The notes under the pieces: generated by a model
What the model saw: only the letters and a program-made list of their open reading frames with translations
Told to the model about the DNA's origin: nothing
Databases searched by the model: none
Program-made: the position numbers and the translations under genes
Part shown: piece by piece, positions 3,254-34,368 of the stretch
Position numbering within the stretch: position 1 is the stretch's first letter
Layout: each line of letters begins with the position of its first letter
Source: an uncultured Verrucomicrobiaceae bacterium
Lineage (GTDB): Bacteria; Verrucomicrobiota; Verrucomicrobiia; Verrucomicrobiales; Verrucomicrobiaceae
NCBI GenBank assembly: GCA_937872615.1
Contig: CALMTT010000062.1
Span: forward strand, 1-64,000
DNA length: 64,000 nucleotides
Reading direction: 5' to 3'

Positions 3254-4099
3254 ATGAATGCCATGTCGAACTTCAAGGCCGAAGCCTTGAACGACGAGAC
3301 CCTTCGTCAACGCGCTCCGAGTATCTACGCCTCCACGCCGATCCTTGGAGTAAGCACGCGCTACACATTCGTTCCCACCGCGGCGATTCTGTCGGGGCTC
3401 AGGGAACTGAATTGGGTGCCCGTGCAGGTGGAGGAACAACGGATTCGGATCGAAGCCCGACGGGGCTTTCAAAAGCATTTGATCCGCTTTCGTCGAGAGG
3501 AGCAGATGCGCTCGCTATCGGAATGGAATCTCGAGCTGGTGTTGGTCAACTCCCATGACGCGGGGTGTGCCTATCAACTCCACGCCGGAGTATTCCGACG
3601 AATCTGCAGCAACGGACTGGTGCTGAGTGAACGCAGCTTTGAGGCGATTCGTCTCCGGCATCACGGGCTGCTGCCAGGTGCGGTGGTTCAGTCCAGCCTG
3701 CGGCTGGTGGAGGCACTGCCGCGGCTCGGCGCGATGATCGAGGAGTTCACGCGCAGGACGCTCACGAATGGCGAGCAGACCCTATTCGCCCGACGTGCCG
3801 TTCTGTTGCGGTATAGGAATCTGGAACAAGCCCCGATTCAGGTCGAAACGGCCCTCAAAGCTCGGAGGCAGGAGGATGAAGGCGTCGATCTGTGGAGAAC
3901 CTTGAACCGGGTCTCTGAGAACCTCCTTCGAGGAGGGGTGTCCGACAATCGTCGAGATCGCGCCGGAAGACTGCGATCCGTGCGGCAATTGCGCGGCATT
4001 GATTCCCAGGTGAACCTGAACAAGGGCATCTGGTCGCTGGCGGAACAGGTCATCTCGGGAGAGTTGTTTCATGAGGACGAGCAACGGCTGTCCGAGTGA
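3254..4099 (+). CDS. DUF932 (phage/plasmid-like) protein
   Basis: A 281-residue protein of the DUF932 family, which is common on plasmids, phages and integrative elements and has no established biochemical function. Features matching the family are the central VNSHDAGCAYQLHAGVFRRICSNG stretch ("... hd ... y ... vfR-ICsNGLv") and the mixed alpha-helical C-terminal half with many Arg/Glu. I chose ATG 3254 because it has an AGGAAA ribosome site about ten bases upstream and the family usually starts close to here; the frame is open back to 3164 but that extra stretch looks non-coding. It is the first cargo gene after the integrase and is transcribed in the same direction. Confidence 0.75.
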   Translation: MNAMSNFKAEALNDETLRQRAPSIYASTPILGVSTRYTFVPTAAILSGLRELNWVPVQVEEQRIRIEARRGFQKHLIRFRREEQMRSLSEWNLELVLVNSHDAGCAYQLHAGVFRRICSNGLVLSERSFEAIRLRHHGLLPGAVVQSSLRLVEALPRLGAMIEEFTRRTLTNGEQTLFARRAVLLRYRNLEQAPIQVETALKARRQEDEGVDLWRTLNRVSENLLRGGVSDNRRDRAGRLRSVRQLRGIDSQVNLNKGIWSLAEQVISGELFHEDEQRLSE

Positions 4100-4203
4100 C
4101 TAATCCGCTCTGCAGGTTAAGGTAAAGGTTACACGGCTTTCGGGGGATTGAGCCTTAGAATCAATTCCTCACCCACAGCCTCAGTGTCCCTCCCCCTTTC
4201 CTA

Positions 4204-5691
4204 ATGCTTGAGAAGTTTATCCACTTGTTCCATAGCTTTTACATGCCAGCAAGGAAATGGTCTCAAAAGGAACTGCGGCTTCTTGGAAAGTGTCCCGACG
4301 AGAAGTTGGTGCAGGAATACGGCCGCACCCCACAAGCGGTGATTACCAAGCGGTCCATGCTGGGCATCCCAAAATTTGTCGGCAAAGGTGAACCGCGTCC
4401 CTGGACACCTGAGGACGAATCACTGCTAGGAACGGATACGGACTATAACATCGCCCAGCGATTGAAACGGACAACCGTATCGGTAACCAAGCGGCGGCGC
4501 TTTCGATGCATTCCTCATTATCAGGATCGCGCGTGGACGGAACAAGAGGATGCGCTGCTAGGCACCACCACTGACCGTCAGGTGGCTGAAGAAGTGGGAC
4601 GAAGCACACGGCAGGTCAGGGAGCGACGTCGATCCAAGGGAATCTTGCCATTCATTTACAAGCCTCGGCAGTGGACGGTGAAGGAGGAGCGTCTGGTCGG
4701 AACCGCGTCCGACTACACCATTGCGAAGCGCCTCCGACGCACCTTGACCTCAGTCCAAGCTAAGCGAGACAAGTTGGGAATCTCGCCCTATAAAGTCAAA
4801 AACAGGTTCTGGTCCGACGAAGAAGTTGAGATGCTCGGCACAAAACCGGATGCCGAAGTGGCGCGTCTGCTGGGCCGAACAAGGGACGCCGTGCGAATTC
4901 AGCGCCGCCTGAGAAAGATTCGTGGAGTGGATGACGAGCTGGTAGCCAAGCTCTGGACTAAGGCCGAGGAAAAGTTACTCGGCAAACTCTCCGACGAGGA
5001 AGTAGCCAAGGCAACAGGTCGCAAAGTGACGGCCGTGAGGCATCGACGTCATCTGCTGGAGATTCCACCCGCGGTATTTCTGCGAAGGCCTTGGACCAAG
5101 GAGGAGGAGAAGCTGTTGGGAACCGACACCGATGAAAAAATAGCAGAGATGCTGGGGCGGGACCGTGCCACAGTAGGTGACCATCGTAGAGATCTCGGCA
5201 TTCCCACGGTGGTTCCCGAGTGGACTCCCGAAGAAACCAAACTGCTTGGGACGGCTCCCGACCCGCAGATCGCAAAGCAACTCGGCCGCAGCTTGGATTC
5301 TGTGCGGAACCGTCGGCTTAGGCTCGGAATTCCTCGCGCCGCCCTGCCCAACTATCGGTTTTGGACCGATCAGGAAATCGCCCTGCTAGGGACGATGCCG
5401 GACTCCGACCTGGCAAAGAAGTTGGGCAGACCGTATGTGGCGGTTCGGGATAAGCGGAACCAACTCAAAATCCCCTATCAACAACCCCGATATGTTTGGT
5501 GGCATCCCGAGGAGCTGAAGCTATTGGAATCCTGCTCGGACGAAGAAGTCGCCAAACGCACCGGCCGACCGATCGGAGCAGTGCGCCAAAAGCGATGGAA
5601 GCTGGCAATGCGTGGCGAGAGTGTTCATACCGCCCGGGCTCGAGCTAAATTTGAGGCCGATCAGAATGCGCCTCCGCAGAGCCACTCTTGA
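4204..5691 (+). CDS. Protein of ten tandem ~46-residue Myb/HTH-like repeats, putative modular DNA-binding protein
   Basis: The 495-residue protein is almost entirely ten degenerate copies of one unit. Each begins with a Trp (W19, 67, 111, 157, 203, 251, 297, 340, 387, 433), giving a period of 43-48 residues. The unit reads W-[TS]-x-x-E-E-x-x-LLGT-x-x-D-x-x-[IV]-A, then x-x-LGR-x-x-x-x-V-x-x-[RK]R-x-x-LGIP. This is the pattern of a short three-helix (Myb/SANT-like) DNA-binding fold, where GR-x-x-x-x-V-x-x-RR would be the recognition helix. The residues between GR and RR differ in every repeat, as in modular DNA readers. No catalytic domain is seen; the last ~45 residues are low-complexity. Start is uncertain: ATG 4204 or ATG 4243 (MPARKW), neither with a strong ribosome site. 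I do not recognise a characterised homologue; DNA binding is inferred. Confidence 0.75.
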   Translation: MLEKFIHLFHSFYMPARKWSQKELRLLGKCPDEKLVQEYGRTPQAVITKRSMLGIPKFVGKGEPRPWTPEDESLLGTDTDYNIAQRLKRTTVSVTKRRRFRCIPHYQDRAWTEQEDALLGTTTDRQVAEEVGRSTRQVRERRRSKGILPFIYKPRQWTVKEERLVGTASDYTIAKRLRRTLTSVQAKRDKLGISPYKVKNRFWSDEEVEMLGTKPDAEVARLLGRTRDAVRIQRRLRKIRGVDDELVAKLWTKAEEKLLGKLSDEEVAKATGRKVTAVRHRRHLLEIPPAVFLRRPWTKEEEKLLGTDTDEKIAEMLGRDRATVGDHRRDLGIPTVVPEWTPEETKLLGTAPDPQIAKQLGRSLDSVRNRRLRLGIPRAALPNYRFWTDQEIALLGTMPDSDLAKKLGRPYVAVRDKRNQLKIPYQQPRYVWWHPEELKLLESCSDEEVAKRTGRPIGAVRQKRWKLAMRGESVHTARARAKFEADQNAPPQSHS

Positions 5692-5866
5692 ATCGTCGCT
5701 CACGCAATCGCCATTCAAACCCAAGCGCATTCAGTCACGTAGGTCTGACAAACCGAAATACTGCATGATGGCCCTCGTTCGTTCGGCAACACGGTCGGGA
5801 AACATCCCGGCTCGGCTTAGATCATTTGTGCGATCAATATGCGAGTGCGTTGAAAATTGGCTTCAA

Positions 5867-6859
5867 TCAGCTTTGTGCCGTCACGTCCGGATAAGGCCCA
5901 AGGAACCGCTCTCCATTGAAGTGGATCATGTGGTCGGGATCATCGGCGATCCAGACTTCGGATTCCCATGCGATGTGCGAGACGAAGGCCTGCATGGTCC
6001 GGCGATTCTCGAATGCGGTGACGAATACAAGGCCCGCTTTACAAAGGGCGAACAGGGTCTTGAGTTCCTTGCGTCGCTTACCATCCACCGGACCCGCGCT
6101 GGTGACCGCTTCGATGAGAATAAGCCAATTTTTGGCCCGGTAGTGGACGATGACATCCGGAATCTTTGAGGCGGAGTCCAAGCTGACGCCGAGCGCCGCC
6201 AAGCCTGCGGCTTCGAGGTGGACGAATTTGTTCTGCGTGTCGCCGATGTAGAGAACCACCCCGCCAGGGGCGAAGATGGGGCAGAAGTGTTCGATAATGG
6301 ACTTGATGAGTGGATTCTGGCCACCGGGCGACAGCGCAACTTCGGAGCCATCGGGCAAAGTGACAGGCACGCGGGTGAGATCGCGCTTCCGGGCAATCTC
6401 GTGCTTGAGCGACTCACGACTGACAAGGTAGTTTTGTAAGGCGGGAGTCCACGCGGCGGTTCCAAACTTGCGCAAAAGGGCTAGGGCTGTCGGTTCGATT
6501 TGATACACTGTCTTGCCGCTGTTGGTGGGGCGATGGGGTTCGTCGGGATTGCGCAACAGCAGGCCTTCTTCGACAAAGAACTTCACCGCATCGTCGCGGA
6601 TTGTTTCGCGCGTGTTGGGCGCATAGCGATTGCCGTAAGCGGTCGCAATGAAATCGATAATGGGGGTGATGCCACGCAAAGGTGCCTGTGCGTCGGACCA
6701 TGCGGCATCCGATTGAAGATCCAGGAGGGCCAGCAACGTATAGGCAGCAGTTTCGTTCCGTTGCTTAGGTCCGAACTTCAAAGAGGTGAGCGCCAGAATG
6801 GCTTCGGCAAGCCGTTTTTTTCGAGAGGTAGCTTTGCGATTGGGTTTATTGATAGGCAT
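5867..6859 (-). CDS. BsuBI/PstI-type type II restriction endonuclease
   Basis: A 330-residue protein with the two-domain plan of the BsuBI/PstI family, whose founding members cleave CTGCAG. The N-terminal part (about 18-150) is a winged-helix-like domain with NETAAYTLLALLDL and ITPIIDFIATAYGNRYAPNTRETIRD. The C-terminal nuclease domain carries LYIGDTQNK (203-211), then PD at 234-235 (KIPDVIVHY), E250 (LILIEAVTSAGPVDGKRR) and the conserved GPVDGKR block, which is the family's catalytic region. It is intact and overlaps the methyltransferase gene upstream by 14 bases, so both are made from one leftward transcript, methyltransferase first. The recognition sequence cannot be read from the protein, though CTGCAG-like is a reasonable guess. 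Confidence 0.88.
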   Translation of the reverse strand: MPINKPNRKATSRKKRLAEAILALTSLKFGPKQRNETAAYTLLALLDLQSDAAWSDAQAPLRGITPIIDFIATAYGNRYAPNTRETIRDDAVKFFVEEGLLLRNPDEPHRPTNSGKTVYQIEPTALALLRKFGTAAWTPALQNYLVSRESLKHEIARKRDLTRVPVTLPDGSEVALSPGGQNPLIKSIIEHFCPIFAPGGVVLYIGDTQNKFVHLEAAGLAALGVSLDSASKIPDVIVHYRAKNWLILIEAVTSAGPVDGKRRKELKTLFALCKAGLVFVTAFENRRTMQAFVSHIAWESEVWIADDPDHMIHFNGERFLGPYPDVTAQS

Positions 6860-8330
6860 GAAGGTGCTTGGCGACGAGTTCGTCGATATCGTCCTGCGAG
6901 AGGTTGAGGGATTTCACTTCGCAGCCCATAGACTGGAGCGTCTCGCGGTCAGGATACGCCAAGGTGCGCAGGTCAGTGGCGTTCACTTGCGTGTGACCGC
7001 TGAAACGCCGGAAATACTGATCCACTACAGTTGAGTTCAGGAAGGCATAGAGGCCGACGGCCATAGTGCGCTCCAAGCCGTGCCCACTGGCGTGAAGATA
7101 ATTTAGGTGGTTCTCGAAACCGACCCACTCAGTTTTCACCAAGTCTGGGTCGAAGAGGCACGCTACGAGACGACGGCGCTCCTCCTTCGACGTGAAGCGT
7201 TTCGTGAGTAGATAAATGCCGGATGGGACGAGCCATGGGCGCGTTTCGTCGTTGACGAGGATGGCGTTGGGCTTGCGTGCTTCAAGCCTCGGCCAGTGAA
7301 CGGTGCCGCCGTTGAAGTGGCAGGGATAGAGAAGTGGCACGGTGCCGTGTTCGGGTTCCTTGCGCAGCGCAGCTTTGAGCCGAAAGTCCACGACACGCCC
7401 AGTGGAGACCGTTACTCCTAGTGAGGCGAGGCTGGTGCGGAGCCCGTCCATGACTTCCTTTGCCGTAGAGTGGTTGGCTGTAGACGGGATATGGATAAAC
7501 TTCTCGGCGTCGTGCGGGTGAACGATTTCGGCAAAGGGAAAGACGTCCTCGGTAATGTCGCTGCCATGCTCGCCGCTGCTACTGGAGATCAGTATCCTGT
7601 CGGGTTGGTTCAGCCCCCTCACTGCATGGAAGATAATGTTTTCCTGCAAGACTCTATCGTCTCGAAAAGCGGCCTGTCGGGACTCAAAGACGTGGAGGCG
7701 GCGAAGTTCCAACTGGCTCAAAAAGTCTTCACGGAACGGTCGAAAGTAAGGGCCGTTGCAAAAGCTACGAGGCGTGATACCGACGAGTTGGCCACCGGGA
7801 ACGAGTAGACGCTGAATGAGGGCGATGAAGCCGGTATAGAGATTGCTAGTTTCGACGCCCACGGAACGCAAAGCGCGGCGCTCGTCGGAGTCGGTGCTAA
7901 TCTTGCGGTAGGGCGGATTAGCAATGGCGGCGTCAAAGGCGGGCGGTTGTTTTACGAACAAATCACCGGCGAGACGTGCAGACATTTCTTGGATGAAGTC
8001 GGCGGAGTGAATGGTGAAGGTGAAACTGATACCCGCTACGGCGCATCGACGCTCGCATTCACGCATCGTAGCTTTCAGCACGTTTAGGATTTCACCGTCG
8101 AGTTCATACAGTGTGGCTTCGATGGCATGGATACCGTCACGCTTTTCACAACATCGAGATACGAAAGCCGCAGTGAGCGCGCCAGCGCCAGCGCCCGCAT
8201 CTAGCAGACGCACCGTTCGAGGGAGTGGCCCGAACATTGATGCCATATAATCTGCCACATGAGTCGCCGTGAAAAATTGACCGAGTGTTTCCTGCCTACT
8301 TCTGGGGGAGACTGTGGCTGCAGTTTTCAT
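6846..8330 (-). CDS. PstI/Eco57I-type DNA adenine-N6 methyltransferase
   Basis: A 494-residue class I SAM-dependent N6-adenine methyltransferase. Motif X region ETLGQFFTATHVADYMASMF (14-33), motif I DAGAGAGALTAAF (44-56) for SAM binding, and the catalytic motif IV NPPY at 138-141 are all present, followed by TSNLYTGFIALIQRLLVPGG and the target-recognition half. It modifies the site cut by the endonuclease at 5867-6859, with which it overlaps by 14 bases. It is paralogous to the larger methyltransferase at 13776: shared blocks include TSNLY, SPRSFCNGP/TPRSFCNGP, FDSRYAAFR/FESRQAAFR and LNYFHRCG/LNYLHASG. Start ATG 8330 fits family length. Confidence 0.9.
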   Translation of the reverse strand: MKTAATVSPRSRQETLGQFFTATHVADYMASMFGPLPRTVRLLDAGAGAGALTAAFVSRCCEKRDGIHAIEATLYELDGEILNVLKATMRECERRCAVAGISFTFTIHSADFIQEMSARLAGDLFVKQPPAFDAAIANPPYRKISTDSDERRALRSVGVETSNLYTGFIALIQRLLVPGGQLVGITPRSFCNGPYFRPFREDFLSQLELRRLHVFESRQAAFRDDRVLQENIIFHAVRGLNQPDRILISSSSGEHGSDITEDVFPFAEIVHPHDAEKFIHIPSTANHSTAKEVMDGLRTSLASLGVTVSTGRVVDFRLKAALRKEPEHGTVPLLYPCHFNGGTVHWPRLEARKPNAILVNDETRPWLVPSGIYLLTKRFTSKEERRRLVACLFDPDLVKTEWVGFENHLNYLHASGHGLERTMAVGLYAFLNSTVVDQYFRRFSGHTQVNATDLRTLAYPDRETLQSMGCEVKSLNLSQDDIDELVAKHLHAYQ

Positions 8331-13497: not shown

Positions 13498-13566
13498 GTT
13501 CGAACGGTAGACGCCAAGGAGGTGGCGGTGGAGAACCGCGCTGAAGAAACGTGCTACCGTTCGAAC
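13498..13566. repeat. 69-bp element bounded by a perfect 13-bp inverted repeat
   Basis: GTTCGAACGGTAG (13498-13510) and CTACCGTTCGAAC (13554-13566) are exact reverse complements, 43 bases apart. Between them CGCCA/TGGCG form a smaller stem that places AGGAGG in its loop, and GCGGTT (13495-13500) can alternatively pair with AACCGC (13534-13539). It may be a miniature inverted-repeat element, a protein-binding dyad or a structured RNA. No flanking target duplication is obvious. The rest of the 13431-13775 gap holds no gene. Confidence 0.7.
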
Positions 13567-13724: not shown

Positions 13725-13776
13725 ACTCCTCGTTAACGCAGCGTGGGATCCTGTTCGTAGGCTCTTGCTCAGCCTA
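13725..13776 (+). promoter_or_regulatory. Conserved 5' element of the second methyltransferase gene (copy B)
   Basis: ACTCCTCGTTAACGC at 13725-13739 (14/15 identical to copy A at 1880), then 19 bases, then TAGGCT (13758-13763)/AGCCTA (13771-13776) ending on the A of the ATG. Upstream similarity continues (GTTAC at 13711-13715 as in copy A). The identical spacing to two start codons of unrelated genes argues for a functional site. Confidence 0.7.
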
Positions 13777-16007
13777 TGAACAGAAAGCCTAGCTTAACCA
13801 GACTTGGGCCACTGCTATCAATTCATGATGCGAGTCGTAGCTTGCGGAGAAACTATCCTCAAGGTGATAGCACTGGCTTCTTCCCGCGCTTAAGTGTCAA
13901 CCCTCGATCTCGCCCTCGGCTGAAAAGTAGCCCGAACTTGACTGACCAGTATTCGCAGGCGGATCCCCACGTCGACGCAAGCCAACTCCCACTTGAGGAG
14001 AATCCCAATTCGGGTGCTGGCACTCCGTCGTCTCCCGGCTCGCCGCTAAGTCGTTCCGAAATCAGCCCGATCGAAGCGGCATACCGGACTCGGCTGACTG
14101 CCTATGCGAACGTCAGTGAAAAGCGTCGCTCAGAGTTAGGCCAATACTTCACACCTCCGCATATCGCTAGGCTTATGGCAGCCAAGTTTCAGCCGACCAC
14201 TGAGGCGGTCAGATTGTTGGACTGCGGTGCAGGACTTGGGGTTCTGACAGCTGCTTTTGTTCAGGAAGCTCTCCAGTGGCGACTCGCTCCAAAAGCCATC
14301 GACGTGGTGCTATTCGAAATCGAATCCAGTTTTGTTCCATTTCTCGAGGATACCCTACTTGCCTGCGCTCGCGCCTGTGAGCTTCGAGGTGTCCCTTTCA
14401 CTTGGCGCATCGACAGCCGTGACTTCATTGAAGCAGTGGTGACGACTATCGCGGCAGACAAACCTTGCTCCACTGATGCGCTGGGATCCTTTACACACTG
14501 CATCCTGAATCCTCCCTATTCCAAGCTCGGCTCCGATTCGAGGCAAGGTCTGCGGCTTCGTGAGCTAGGCGTAAAGACATCCAATCTCTACGCAGCCTTC
14601 ATTTGGCTGGCGGTTCGCTTGCTCGGTAAAGAAGGTGAGTTCTGCAGCCTGAGTCCGCGGAGCTTTTGCAACGGACCCCACTTCGCACAATTCCGTGATA
14701 TGCTGAGCCGCGAGACAGCCATTGAGGATATCCACACCTTCGACTCGCGCTATGCTGCGTTCCGCGAGGACAACGTTTGCCAGGAGTTGATCGTGTTGCA
14801 CGCTCGCCGAAGCCACAGACCCCCCCTCGAGTTTAACCTAACCAGCAACACCGGAGACCCGGAGGATGATGTCCTCAATTGGCGGAAGCTCCCCTACCAT
14901 CGATTGTTCTCGTTGAACGATTCGCATCCAGTGGTGCAACTTCCGATGAGCCTGCAAGATGAGGTGATTATGGAGGAACTCGAACGCCTTCCTTGCTCTC
15001 TCGATGACCTGGGCCTTGCCGTGAGCACCGGTGCTGTTCTGGAGCATAGGGTCAAGGATGCCTTACTGTCTGAATTTGCAGAAGGCGCAGCGCCAATGAT
15101 TTACTCCCACCATCTTAGAAATGGTCGAGTGGTTTGGCCCGGGGAGAGAGGTCGAAGGCCCAGCGCTATCTTCAGAACTCAGGAAATCGAGCGACTGCTT
15201 ATTCCGTCAGGGTGCTATGTGCTGGTCAAGCGCTTCAGCGCCCGAGAGCAAAGGCGTCGCGTCATGGCCTTCGTTTTGGATTCATCAAAAACGGCAATTC
15301 CAGCGACCGTTGTGGGGATCAACAACCAGCTTAATTACTTCCATCGCTGCGGAAAGTCATTGGATCCAAAGCTGGCCGCTGGAATGGCGATGTTCTTGAA
15401 TTCCACCATCACCGATCGGGTCTTCCGGATCTTTAACGGGACCACGCAAGTCAACGCCGCCGATCTCAGGAGGCTCCGTTATCCGTCTCCGGAGACTCTT
15501 CGTCGAATCGGCTCCCAACTGGGAACAGGAATCCCATCACAGACTTCCATGGACCGGATCGTGAATGATTCACTAGATCTTCGGTTCGCCACACGTGGGG
15601 CGCTTGCCGCACAAGCATTGATCGATCATGCTCGCTTCGTGCTGGGAGCGATTGGGATCTCAAAAGATTCATCTAATGAACGCTGTGCTCTTGCTCTCCT
15701 AGCTTGTCTGGGTGTCATTCCCGGGAACCCATGGACTATTGCACGGCCATCAAGGCTGACGATTGAAACGATCATTGAGTTTTGCTCGAAACACTTTGGC
15801 AGATCCTATCACGCAGCCAGCAAGAGATCACTCCAATCCCAACTGATTGATCCCCTGACCGAGAAAGGGGTTTTACAGGAGCTATCAACTTCTACTTCTC
15901 ACGCCGGTGGAGCGAGAGCGTGGATCTGTCGAGCACCTGAGCGCCTGATCACGTTGCTCCGACTCTATGGCTCTAGAGATTATGATACAGATCAGGAAAT
16001 CCGCTGA
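13776..16007 (+). CDS. PstI-type adenine methyltransferase fused to the endonuclease's N-terminal domain (no nuclease domain)
   Basis: A 743-residue protein in three parts. Residues 1-95 are a Ser/Pro/Arg-rich, probably disordered extension. Residues ~100-600 form an N6-adenine methyltransferase: LGQYFTPPHIARLMA, motif I DCGAGLGVLTAAF, and NPPY near 245-248 (HCILNPPYSK), then the same target-recognition blocks as the methyltransferase at 6846. Residues ~610-740 resemble the N-terminal winged-helix domain of the endonuclease at 5867: NERCALALLACLG versus NETAAYTLLALLD, and TIETIIEFCSKHFGRSYHAASK versus ITPIIDFIATAYGNRYAPNT. The protein ends where the nuclease domain would start. It should therefore methylate but not cut. 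It could be a solitary protective or regulatory methyltransferase. The start at 13776 is supported by the conserved upstream element. Confidence 0.82.
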   Translation: MNRKPSLTRLGPLLSIHDASRSLRRNYPQGDSTGFFPRLSVNPRSRPRLKSSPNLTDQYSQADPHVDASQLPLEENPNSGAGTPSSPGSPLSRSEISPIEAAYRTRLTAYANVSEKRRSELGQYFTPPHIARLMAAKFQPTTEAVRLLDCGAGLGVLTAAFVQEALQWRLAPKAIDVVLFEIESSFVPFLEDTLLACARACELRGVPFTWRIDSRDFIEAVVTTIAADKPCSTDALGSFTHCILNPPYSKLGSDSRQGLRLRELGVKTSNLYAAFIWLAVRLLGKEGEFCSLSPRSFCNGPHFAQFRDMLSRETAIEDIHTFDSRYAAFREDNVCQELIVLHARRSHRPPLEFNLTSNTGDPEDDVLNWRKLPYHRLFSLNDSHPVVQLPMSLQDEVIMEELERLPCSLDDLGLAVSTGAVLEHRVKDALLSEFAEGAAPMIYSHHLRNGRVVWPGERGRRPSAIFRTQEIERLLIPSGCYVLVKRFSAREQRRRVMAFVLDSSKTAIPATVVGINNQLNYFHRCGKSLDPKLAAGMAMFLNSTITDRVFRIFNGTTQVNAADLRRLRYPSPETLRRIGSQLGTGIPSQTSMDRIVNDSLDLRFATRGALAAQALIDHARFVLGAIGISKDSSNERCALALLACLGVIPGNPWTIARPSRLTIETIIEFCSKHFGRSYHAASKRSLQSQLIDPLTEKGVLQELSTSTSHAGGARAWICRAPERLITLLRLYGSRDYDTDQEIR

Positions 16008-33045: not shown

Positions 33046-34368
33046 CCGCATTCCTACGTTGGAAGTTGCCTGCAACCTCACCCCTAACCGATCCCTCTAA
33101 CCGTTCTCCTTCCGGATCACACTAACCTCCTGAAATTGTTCGCTCCAGAAACACCCCACCTCCCGGTGTCGTCTTTCTGAACCGTTTCTCCCCATCGGCT
33201 GGGCTGGCAGAAGTTGCCTCCTGCCAACCCAGCTTACCGATCGAGACGGGTTTCCCCGTCGCTGCTTTCGTATGCGGTTTCATGCCCGGCACCACCCGTT
33301 AGCACCCGCCCGCTCCAGAGACTGCCTTGCCTCCCGAAACGGAAACCGTTACCCGGTCACTTCTACTCACAGCACTCTCATCAAGGTGGGCTTTTCAAAC
33401 ACCGGGGGTCTTTACCCCGGCACCGGTAAGCGTCCGGCCGCCTCACCCCTTGCGCGGTTATCTCAGCTCTTCCCCGCAGCAGTCACGTTGGTAGGACCCC
33501 ATGATGGGTCCAGGTGTCATCCGAAATGTCGCCAACTCCCGTTAACGGCATCTTTTGCCATGGCTCCTTGACCATGGATTTCAGGGGACAGAATACAGAA
33601 GCTTCCCCTTACCCTCCGAAGACACTTTTCCCGGTTCGGCCCCGCGTCTCTGCTGCCGGTTACTGGCAAGGGCTTCATCGCCCCTTTCGTGGTTGAGCTC
33701 TTCGCGTTCCAGGGATTTGCCCCAGATACCCGGTAGAAAGATCCTCTACCGGCCCCTCGGTGTCACCACCGGAGGACTCCCCACGCCAGCCCGCGTTAAA
33801 CGAACCTGTCCCTACCCAGGACCGGTCCGAATCCCGCCGGGTGGATTTGAAGCGGACTCCCGCTTCGCACCAACTTTGAACTGAACCGACTTCGGGGAAT
33901 CTCACCCCAAAGCGTTTCCCGCTCGCCCCGACTCCGGCCCGGGGACTCCATGGGATCGAATCTGGGGATTCCTCGCCGCTTCCCGCGACGCATTACTCCC
34001 AAAAGCCTCCCTCGAACTGGACGAGCCAGTCTCCTGGCATCCAGCTCTACGGAGCGTTTGATTCGTGGTTGCTTAAGCCACCCCCTTCCCTGCTGACGGT
34101 AATCAGCGGTCCCGGGTCCAAACGCCCATCTCGATCGGAACTGAGAACGCGGCTGCGCTCGATACGTTCCTATCCTTTCCCATACCCCATCCCCGCCGTT
34201 CCAGACAGCCTCCAAAGCACCAGAAGGGTCCCCCACGAAGTGACCCTACCTTGATAGGGGATCGTGTCTCCATGCCTGCCGACGGTAAGGAGGTGAAAGA
34301 CGGGGGACCGGCAAAATTTTCGCGGGCTTCGCCGCTTAGCTCCGCCGGTCCGCCGACTTTCGCGTCCT

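Follow-up and report, generated by a model that had tools for sequence, protein, structure and literature searches.

Ten Diverged Units Fill One Open Reading Frame

The array open reading frame (P0001) occupies positions 4204–5691 on the plus strand of the window, the whole 64,000-nucleotide stretch analyzed here from an uncultured Verrucomicrobiaceae bacterium. Ten diverged units of 43–48 residues fill nearly all of its 495 codons. The original prediction had described a ten-copy repeat array, and a profile built from P0001's own ten units bears this out: It finds ten domains totaling 667 bits, whereas among 200 shuffled P0001 sequences the highest score is 7.5 bits. Units 1–10 begin at residues 19, 67, 111, 157, 203, 251, 297, 340, 387, and 433 (spacing 43–48). 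Upstream of the array gene lie a phage-integrase-type gene and a DUF932 gene; downstream, a BsuBI/PstI-type restriction enzyme is encoded with an Eco57I-type methyltransferase.

The true start is probably ATG 4243 (MPARKW, 482 aa) rather than 4204, because the leader of a second copy, on contig C132 of the same assembly, carries an in-frame TAA. The features of the locus are:

4206–4234, plus strand: conserved leader GCTTGAGAA..TT.T.C...TGTTCCATA, shortly before the probable start codon
4243–5691, plus strand: likely true array coding region, 482 aa (TAA in the C132 leader; dN 0.059, dS 0.847 between copies)
4258–4401, plus strand: unit 1 (residues 19–66)
4402–4533, plus strand: unit 2 (residues 67–110)
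4534–4671, plus strand: unit 3 (residues 111–156)
4672–4809, plus strand: unit 4 (residues 157–202)
4810–4953, plus strand: unit 5 (residues 203–250)
4954–5091, plus strand: unit 6 (residues 251–296)
5092–5220, plus strand: unit 7 (residues 297–339), folded in the three-unit model
5221–5361, plus strand: unit 8 (residues 340–386), folded in the three-unit model; best unit match to the GcrA DNA-binding domain
5362–5499, plus strand: unit 9 (residues 387–432), folded in the three-unit model
5500–5634, plus strand: unit 10 (residues 433 to ~477), followed by a short tail up to the stop
5645–5725 (left edge approximate), minus strand: remnant of the C terminus of a helicase-associated (HA)-repeat gene, by DNA match to a C132 stretch ending at L006 position 9429 and by its peptide in one minus-strand frame
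5749–5815, minus strand: remnant of the C terminus of a 164-aa gene, 94% identical over 67 bp to L006 8088–8154, with a peptide match

Five positions (W1, D14, R23, V28, and R32) are invariant in 10/10 units, and E5, L8, L9, G10, A18, and I37 are nearly so; overall identity to the reference unit is only 34–50% for the other nine. Tandem Repeats Finder detected no DNA-level tandem repeat in the array gene. Because the units are this diverged and leave no repeat at the DNA level, the array is, judged from its sequence, old rather than recently expanded. The original prediction had also placed the changing residues exactly between the GR and RR motifs, where a recognition helix would vary. This was overstated: Helix 3 does differ most between units, yet only slightly (mean pairwise difference 0.66, vs. 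0.62 for helix 2 and 0.55 for helix 1), and the variation is spread over all three helices.

With up to three mismatches allowed, the leader pattern occurs three times in the 6.8-Mb assembly, each time just 5′ of an array gene, and the reversed pattern, used as a control, has no occurrence. The leader is a possible promoter or autoregulatory site; its restriction to three array genes may be a matter of common descent alone.

Profiles, Charge, and Predicted Fold Point to DNA Binding

Two Pfam families match P0001 above their curated cut-offs—Sigma70_r4_2 at 37.6 bits (cut-off 25.7) and HTH_23 at 36.8 bits (cut-off 24.6)—which places it by curated profile in the helix-turn-helix (HTH)/homeodomain-like superfamily. 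As had been predicted, Pfam found no enzyme domain, the GIY-YIG catalytic domain included, and neither Myb nor GcrA was among the 11 families matching at E up to 10. The phage profile PHROG 323 ("transcriptional regulator, D5-like") matches P0001 at 4.9e-59, over six stretches, and the D5 protein of phage T5 at 1.2e-71, E-values that are inflated because repeats match repeats. The same profile matched 8/8 proteins tested, at 6e-113 to 4e-11: T5 D5, a Listeria phage D5-like protein, a Pseudomonas plasmid array, proteins from loci L060, L116, L104, and L062, and a Vibrio phage GIY-YIG protein. The T5 record annotates D5 as DNA-binding and needed for DNA replication and late transcription.

P0001 has a net charge of +34, distributed unevenly within each unit: Positions 24–36 carry 0 to +5, and positions 1–22 carry +2 to −5, mostly negative. 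Helix 3 of unit 7 has no net positive charge. Basic positions 24–36 form the pattern that would be expected of a DNA-facing third helix. No target site for P0001 was found.

An AlphaFold2 model of units 7–9 (pLDDT 86.8, pTM 0.58), whose alignment held only other triplets of P0001 and of one relative, predicts three helices in each unit, in keeping with the anticipated Myb/HTH-like character. The full-length model likewise contains ten three-helix units, with a pTM of 0.22 and several linkers below pLDDT 50, from an alignment of only two sequences. Inter-unit geometry is thus not confident in either model (pTM 0.58 for three units, 0.22 for ten), and as modeled the full-length array looks like beads on a flexible string, without a confident superhelix. 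The superhelical packing foreseen at the outset is rejected for now on these values, which, with two aligned sequences, amount to a weak test.

The best structural neighbor of unit 8 is the DNA-binding domain of GcrA, DNA-free (Z 5.5, rmsd 1.6 over 43 residues) and DNA-bound (Z 5.3, rmsd 1.3 over 39 residues), with 35–38% identity over 39–43 residues (PDB 5yiu, 5yiv); Z scores near 5 are middling and common among small helical domains. A spliceosomal Myb-type chain, Reb1-Ter, and Myb repeats follow, the Myb structures again at middling Z (1h8a, Z 4.7, rmsd 1.7 over 40 residues; c-Myb R2 1mbg, Z 4.3, rmsd 1.9 over 41). Searched with Foldseek, the full-length model had no PDB match at E 1e-3; its first matches, both weak, were SNAPc on a promoter (E 7e-3) and Reb1-Ter (E 0.035). 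Among viral predicted structures, 41 matched at E 1e-3, including a Vibrio phage D5 protein and proteins named endonucleases. By sequence, the PDB held no match to P0001 (best profile E 0.23), and an additional PDB sequence search returned a kinase domain as its sole match. A family missing from these fold lists was not counted as excluded.

Some SANT/Myb repeats bind protein or RNA, and the fold list, with its spliceosomal Myb/SANT-type chains and a PRC2 structure, raises the same reading for the array. We regard it as highly improbable, as the charge polarity, the HTH profiles, the D5 annotation, and the fusions to nucleases described below all indicate DNA.

Units Are Conserved Individually Between Copies

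Besides the window, the assembly holds a full-length copy of the array on C132 (88% identity), another on C513 that is truncated by the contig end (89% identity over 197 residues), and a piece with two units on C317. The assembly has an estimated contamination of 7.4%, so the copies may stem from more than one strain. The array copies on other contigs are under strong purifying selection: Nei–Gojobori dN/dS for the three copy pairs is 0.059/0.847, 0.052/0.377, and 0.070/0.481, or 0.07, 0.14, and 0.15.

The original prediction expected diversifying positions in the third helix, and such diversification is rejected, since between copies helix 3 evolves no more quickly than the other parts of the unit, and among orthologues it resembles helices 1 and 2. 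Window and C132 differ at 6/110 residues in helix 3 (positions 25–35), 5/80 in helix 2, 10/80 in helix 1, and 21/109 in the linkers. Counting only positions that vary between units, 8/80 changed in helix 3 and its turn vs. 9/70 in helices 1 and 2 (Fisher p 0.61) and 16/79 in the linkers (p 0.08 against helix 3). In a different family of the order, six four-unit orthologues give the same picture for the helices (mean entropy 0.42 in helix 3, 0.40 and 0.45 in helices 1 and 2); there it is the linkers that vary least (0.29), the reverse of what the window copies show. Nor did either comparison, window with C132 or the six four-unit orthologues, reveal conservation specific to helix 3. The units thus appear conserved individually, which fits a fixed target without singling out helix 3, and this unit-by-unit conservation could also reflect folding or protein contacts.

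This pattern bears on a reading in which P0001 is a largely sequence-independent coating or architectural protein, its weak HTH units adding avidity to compact or silence the element. The net charge of +34 and the many basic helix-3 faces would suit such a protein, as would ten units joined by low-confidence linkers and a unit number that varies among relatives from 3 to 14, mostly without any other domain. However, one unit is not exchangeable for another: The helix-3 sequence particular to each is retained from copy to copy at dS 0.38–0.85, and across six genomes a four-unit paralogue shows the same conservation of every single unit. We therefore consider coating rather unlikely.

Two further observations concern the copies. 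On C317, a contig of just 3.5 kb, the end of the two-unit piece (L008, 2737–3114, minus strand) reaches 4 bp into a Cas4–Cas1 fusion gene at its start; cas2 comes next. The piece also overlaps an FtsH-like (Peptidase_M41) gene of opposite orientation at that gene's 3′ end. It is either the leftover of a rearrangement or a small array protein linked to the CRISPR adaptation genes. Separately, a 41-bp stretch is common to window 13510–13550 and C513:1074–1114 and occurs nowhere else in the assembly; both contigs carry an array gene.

Relatives Range from Free-Standing Arrays to Nuclease Arms

Unit number varies among relatives, as had been anticipated, from 3 to 14 across Verrucomicrobia, Bacilli, Pseudomonas plasmids, and phages. 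Profile search gives 11 units in a Verrucomicrobiales protein (L060), six each in the arrays of pQBR103 and pPma4326F, four in that of G268, and four matches in T5 D5, three of them above 5 bits. In a Bacilli genome (L062), adjacent open reading frames contain 14 and 12 domain matches, of which 11 and 10 exceed 5 bits; these paralogous arrays (3758–8193) have a similar C-terminal region and are followed by a sigma-70-like gene. In a test for colinear descent of the units, P0001 and the 11-unit L060 protein fit best at an offset of +1 (permutation p 0.08).

Within the window's order, 25/386 genomes, the window's own counted, have matches at E 1e-5; among the listed members of its own genus, only the window genome itself matched at that threshold. 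The array reading frames in 18 fetched regions contain 3 to 7 units. These regions represent 16 of the 24 other matching genomes (G492 and G622 contribute two each; G268 is locus L009); G348, G523, G542, G567, G593, G603, and G604 are represented by their short loci from the search. A full-protein search of the phylum sample matched 2/288 genomes, the window's own included. P0001 alone found nothing in the genome contigs and viral contigs collections, nor did A4 and the L063 and L065 proteins in the viral contigs collection. A search combining a single-unit alignment with PHROG 323 (56 relatives) was rejected as evidence of distribution: It matched 29 genomes but also 11/14 controls, mostly through weak generic HTH matches.

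In IMG/VR, 11/138 candidate stretches were confirmed. Free-standing arrays account for L116, L117, L118, and L124 (8, 7, 8, and 3 unit matches); L125 has one unit ahead of a metallophosphoesterase; and six are GIY-YIG-like proteins with two to four units (L119–L123 and L126, L121 repeating L120). Of five such proteins compared with Pfam, three have a confirmed GIY-YIG domain (L120, L123, and L065; not L119 or L126). In these phage nucleases the units form the C-terminal part, the place where a DNA-targeting arm is expected. An unusual combination occurs on an alphaproteobacterial plasmid (Qipengyuania; L066, 3818–6769), where seven unit matches and a GHKL-type ATPase domain share one protein that might be a DNA-targeted ATPase; its Pfam matches to Myb (sub-threshold) and GcrA (0.001) lie below cut-off.

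Units serving as the non-catalytic arm of nucleases are good indirect support for DNA binding. Taken with the HTH profiles, the GcrA/Myb-type fold, and the helix-3 charge, they make the DNA binding of the original prediction well supported and probable. They also suggest that P0001 could be the detached targeting arm of a GIY-YIG homing-type nuclease, retained for competition or immunity. The position of the units C-terminal to GIY-YIG in phage proteins (three of five by Pfam) and a weak match of P0001 to the homing endonuclease profile PHROG 7168 (8e-4) speak for that origin. It is nonetheless very unlikely, for most cellular relatives are free-standing arrays, T5 D5 of the same family is nuclease-free, and P0001 has ten units against the 2–5 of nuclease arms.

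The Restriction Genes Appear to Be Later Neighbors

The integrase and restriction-modification genes flanking P0001 had suggested a role tied to them, a link that the other loci leave unsupported. In a blastp comparison of open reading frames of at least 90 aa across 24 loci, the window's first 20 kb shared only the array and antisense frames, and 0/23 other loci shared the array's neighbors, with flanks of ~6 kb or less that leave more distant links possible. Beside the C132 copy are a convergent HA-repeat gene and a gene for 164 aa, with a type IV coupling protein encoded nearby. The HA-repeat gene (L006, 8196–9509) encodes a 437-aa protein of six helicase-associated (PF03457) repeats and overlaps the array gene, which puts two distinct repeat proteins next to each other. 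Both genes are intact there, and because the window retains remnants of them (5645–5725 and 5749–5815), the restriction genes are most simply read from these sequence traces as a later neighbor of the array.

Elsewhere, loci L009 and L111, both from one family of the order, have the four-unit gene after a DUF480 gene, thiC lying no more than a few kb away, and the L060 array adjoins glmS (a gene name assigned by eye from sequence). Given such neighbors, the array family is not confined to mobile elements. The window also contains, at 13776–16007, a second Eco57I-type methyltransferase, fused to a BsuBI/PstI N-terminal HTH domain and 5 kb from the first restriction-modification pair, and a group II intron match at 33950–34049 on the minus strand (Rfam, 49.1 bits).

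A Free-Standing Array Proposed to Bind One Long Site

We propose, with a probability of roughly 0.6, that P0001 is a free-standing D5-type, GcrA/Myb-like DNA-binding protein whose ten HTH units recognize one conserved long site, and that it acts as a regulator or DNA organizer. Each unit is predicted to fold into three helices; from fold and charge, the basic third helix would enter the major groove, and flexible linkers would let successive units dock along one DNA. The array would thereby recognize a single fixed long or composite site. One fixed site is the most likely arrangement because each unit's identity, helix 3 included, is kept between copies on different contigs. In an R2R3-Myb protein, two units read a six-base motif (PMC7145699); extrapolating ~3 bp per unit from that pair, the site could extend to ~30 bp. 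Once bound, P0001 would act as a repressor or activator, or as a local organizer of the accessory DNA that carries it, by analogy with T5 D5. Regulation or organization of accessory DNA is our best guess for the role of the bound site.

A bolder version casts the family as bacteria's own equivalent of TALE and zinc-finger arrays: free-standing arrays, reaching ten units or more, in which each compact three-helix unit reads its own few base pairs within a single very long site and the units are reused as arms of homing nucleases. We consider this version unlikely. As a further addition, some units could sense methylated adenine as GcrA does, written by the neighboring methyltransferases; the title of entry 5yiv refers to GcrA recognition of methylated DNA.

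D5-like HTH repeats are a known kind. The literature searched, which left most subscription journals outside, contains no description of the array family: neither of a ten-unit, enzyme-free D5-like array, nor of its spread, nor of its kinship to nuclease arms. To our knowledge, few natural bacterial DNA readers with long arrays are known. If each unit reads its own bases, the family would offer small modular DNA-binding parts that can be put to the test, and it would indicate how proteins of phages and plasmids are directed to long sites; it spans Verrucomicrobia, Bacilli, plasmids, and phages and is already joined to nucleases in nature. On the bolder reading, reuse as nuclease arms would make the units a new, small modular DNA-reading scaffold. 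If the units do not read their own bases, the T5 D5 family still widens from a phage regulator to a broad family of repeat arrays.

Comparison with Known Systems

TALE units have 33–35 residues, two helices, and a two-residue variable pair. Those of P0001 differ in length (43–48 residues), fold (three helices), and layout of variable residues (dispersed), so that the two have nothing in common beyond the broad concept of many DNA-binding modules in a long row. Comparisons of units, copies, and orthologues found neither diversification nor evidence of a TAL-like reading code.

The eukaryotic multi-Myb binders (SNAPc, Reb1, and c-Myb/v-Myb) also consist of tandem three-helix units, theirs on one DNA. 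Such proteins have 2–5 units, and the Myb/SANT hallmark is a set of three tryptophans or aromatics at regular intervals in each unit; that hallmark is absent from P0001, where only W1 is conserved. GcrA of Caulobacter (5yiu, 5yiv) has one such domain per entry vs. ten in P0001.

The GIY-YIG homing-type nucleases of Vibrio and other phages have homologous C-terminal units, 2–5 in number and attached to a nuclease domain, whereas P0001 has ten units and no nuclease. The Pseudomonas megaplasmid arrays (pQBR103 WP_011923144 and pPma4326F WP_007250635) are, like P0001, free-standing and built from the same type of unit; they are shorter, with six units, are annotated as hypothetical, and have several matching places per plasmid.

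T5 D5, represented by PHROG 323, belongs to the same profile family and similarly consists of repeated HTH units without an enzyme domain. In a 2026 preprint (PMC13405049), T5 D5 is reported to trigger a retron, its HTH being predicted by AlphaFold3 to bind the msDNA, and to be toxic on its own. D5 has 255 aa with three to four weakly matching units and belongs to a lytic phage; P0001 has 482 aa with ten well-matching units and resides in bacterial accessory DNA.
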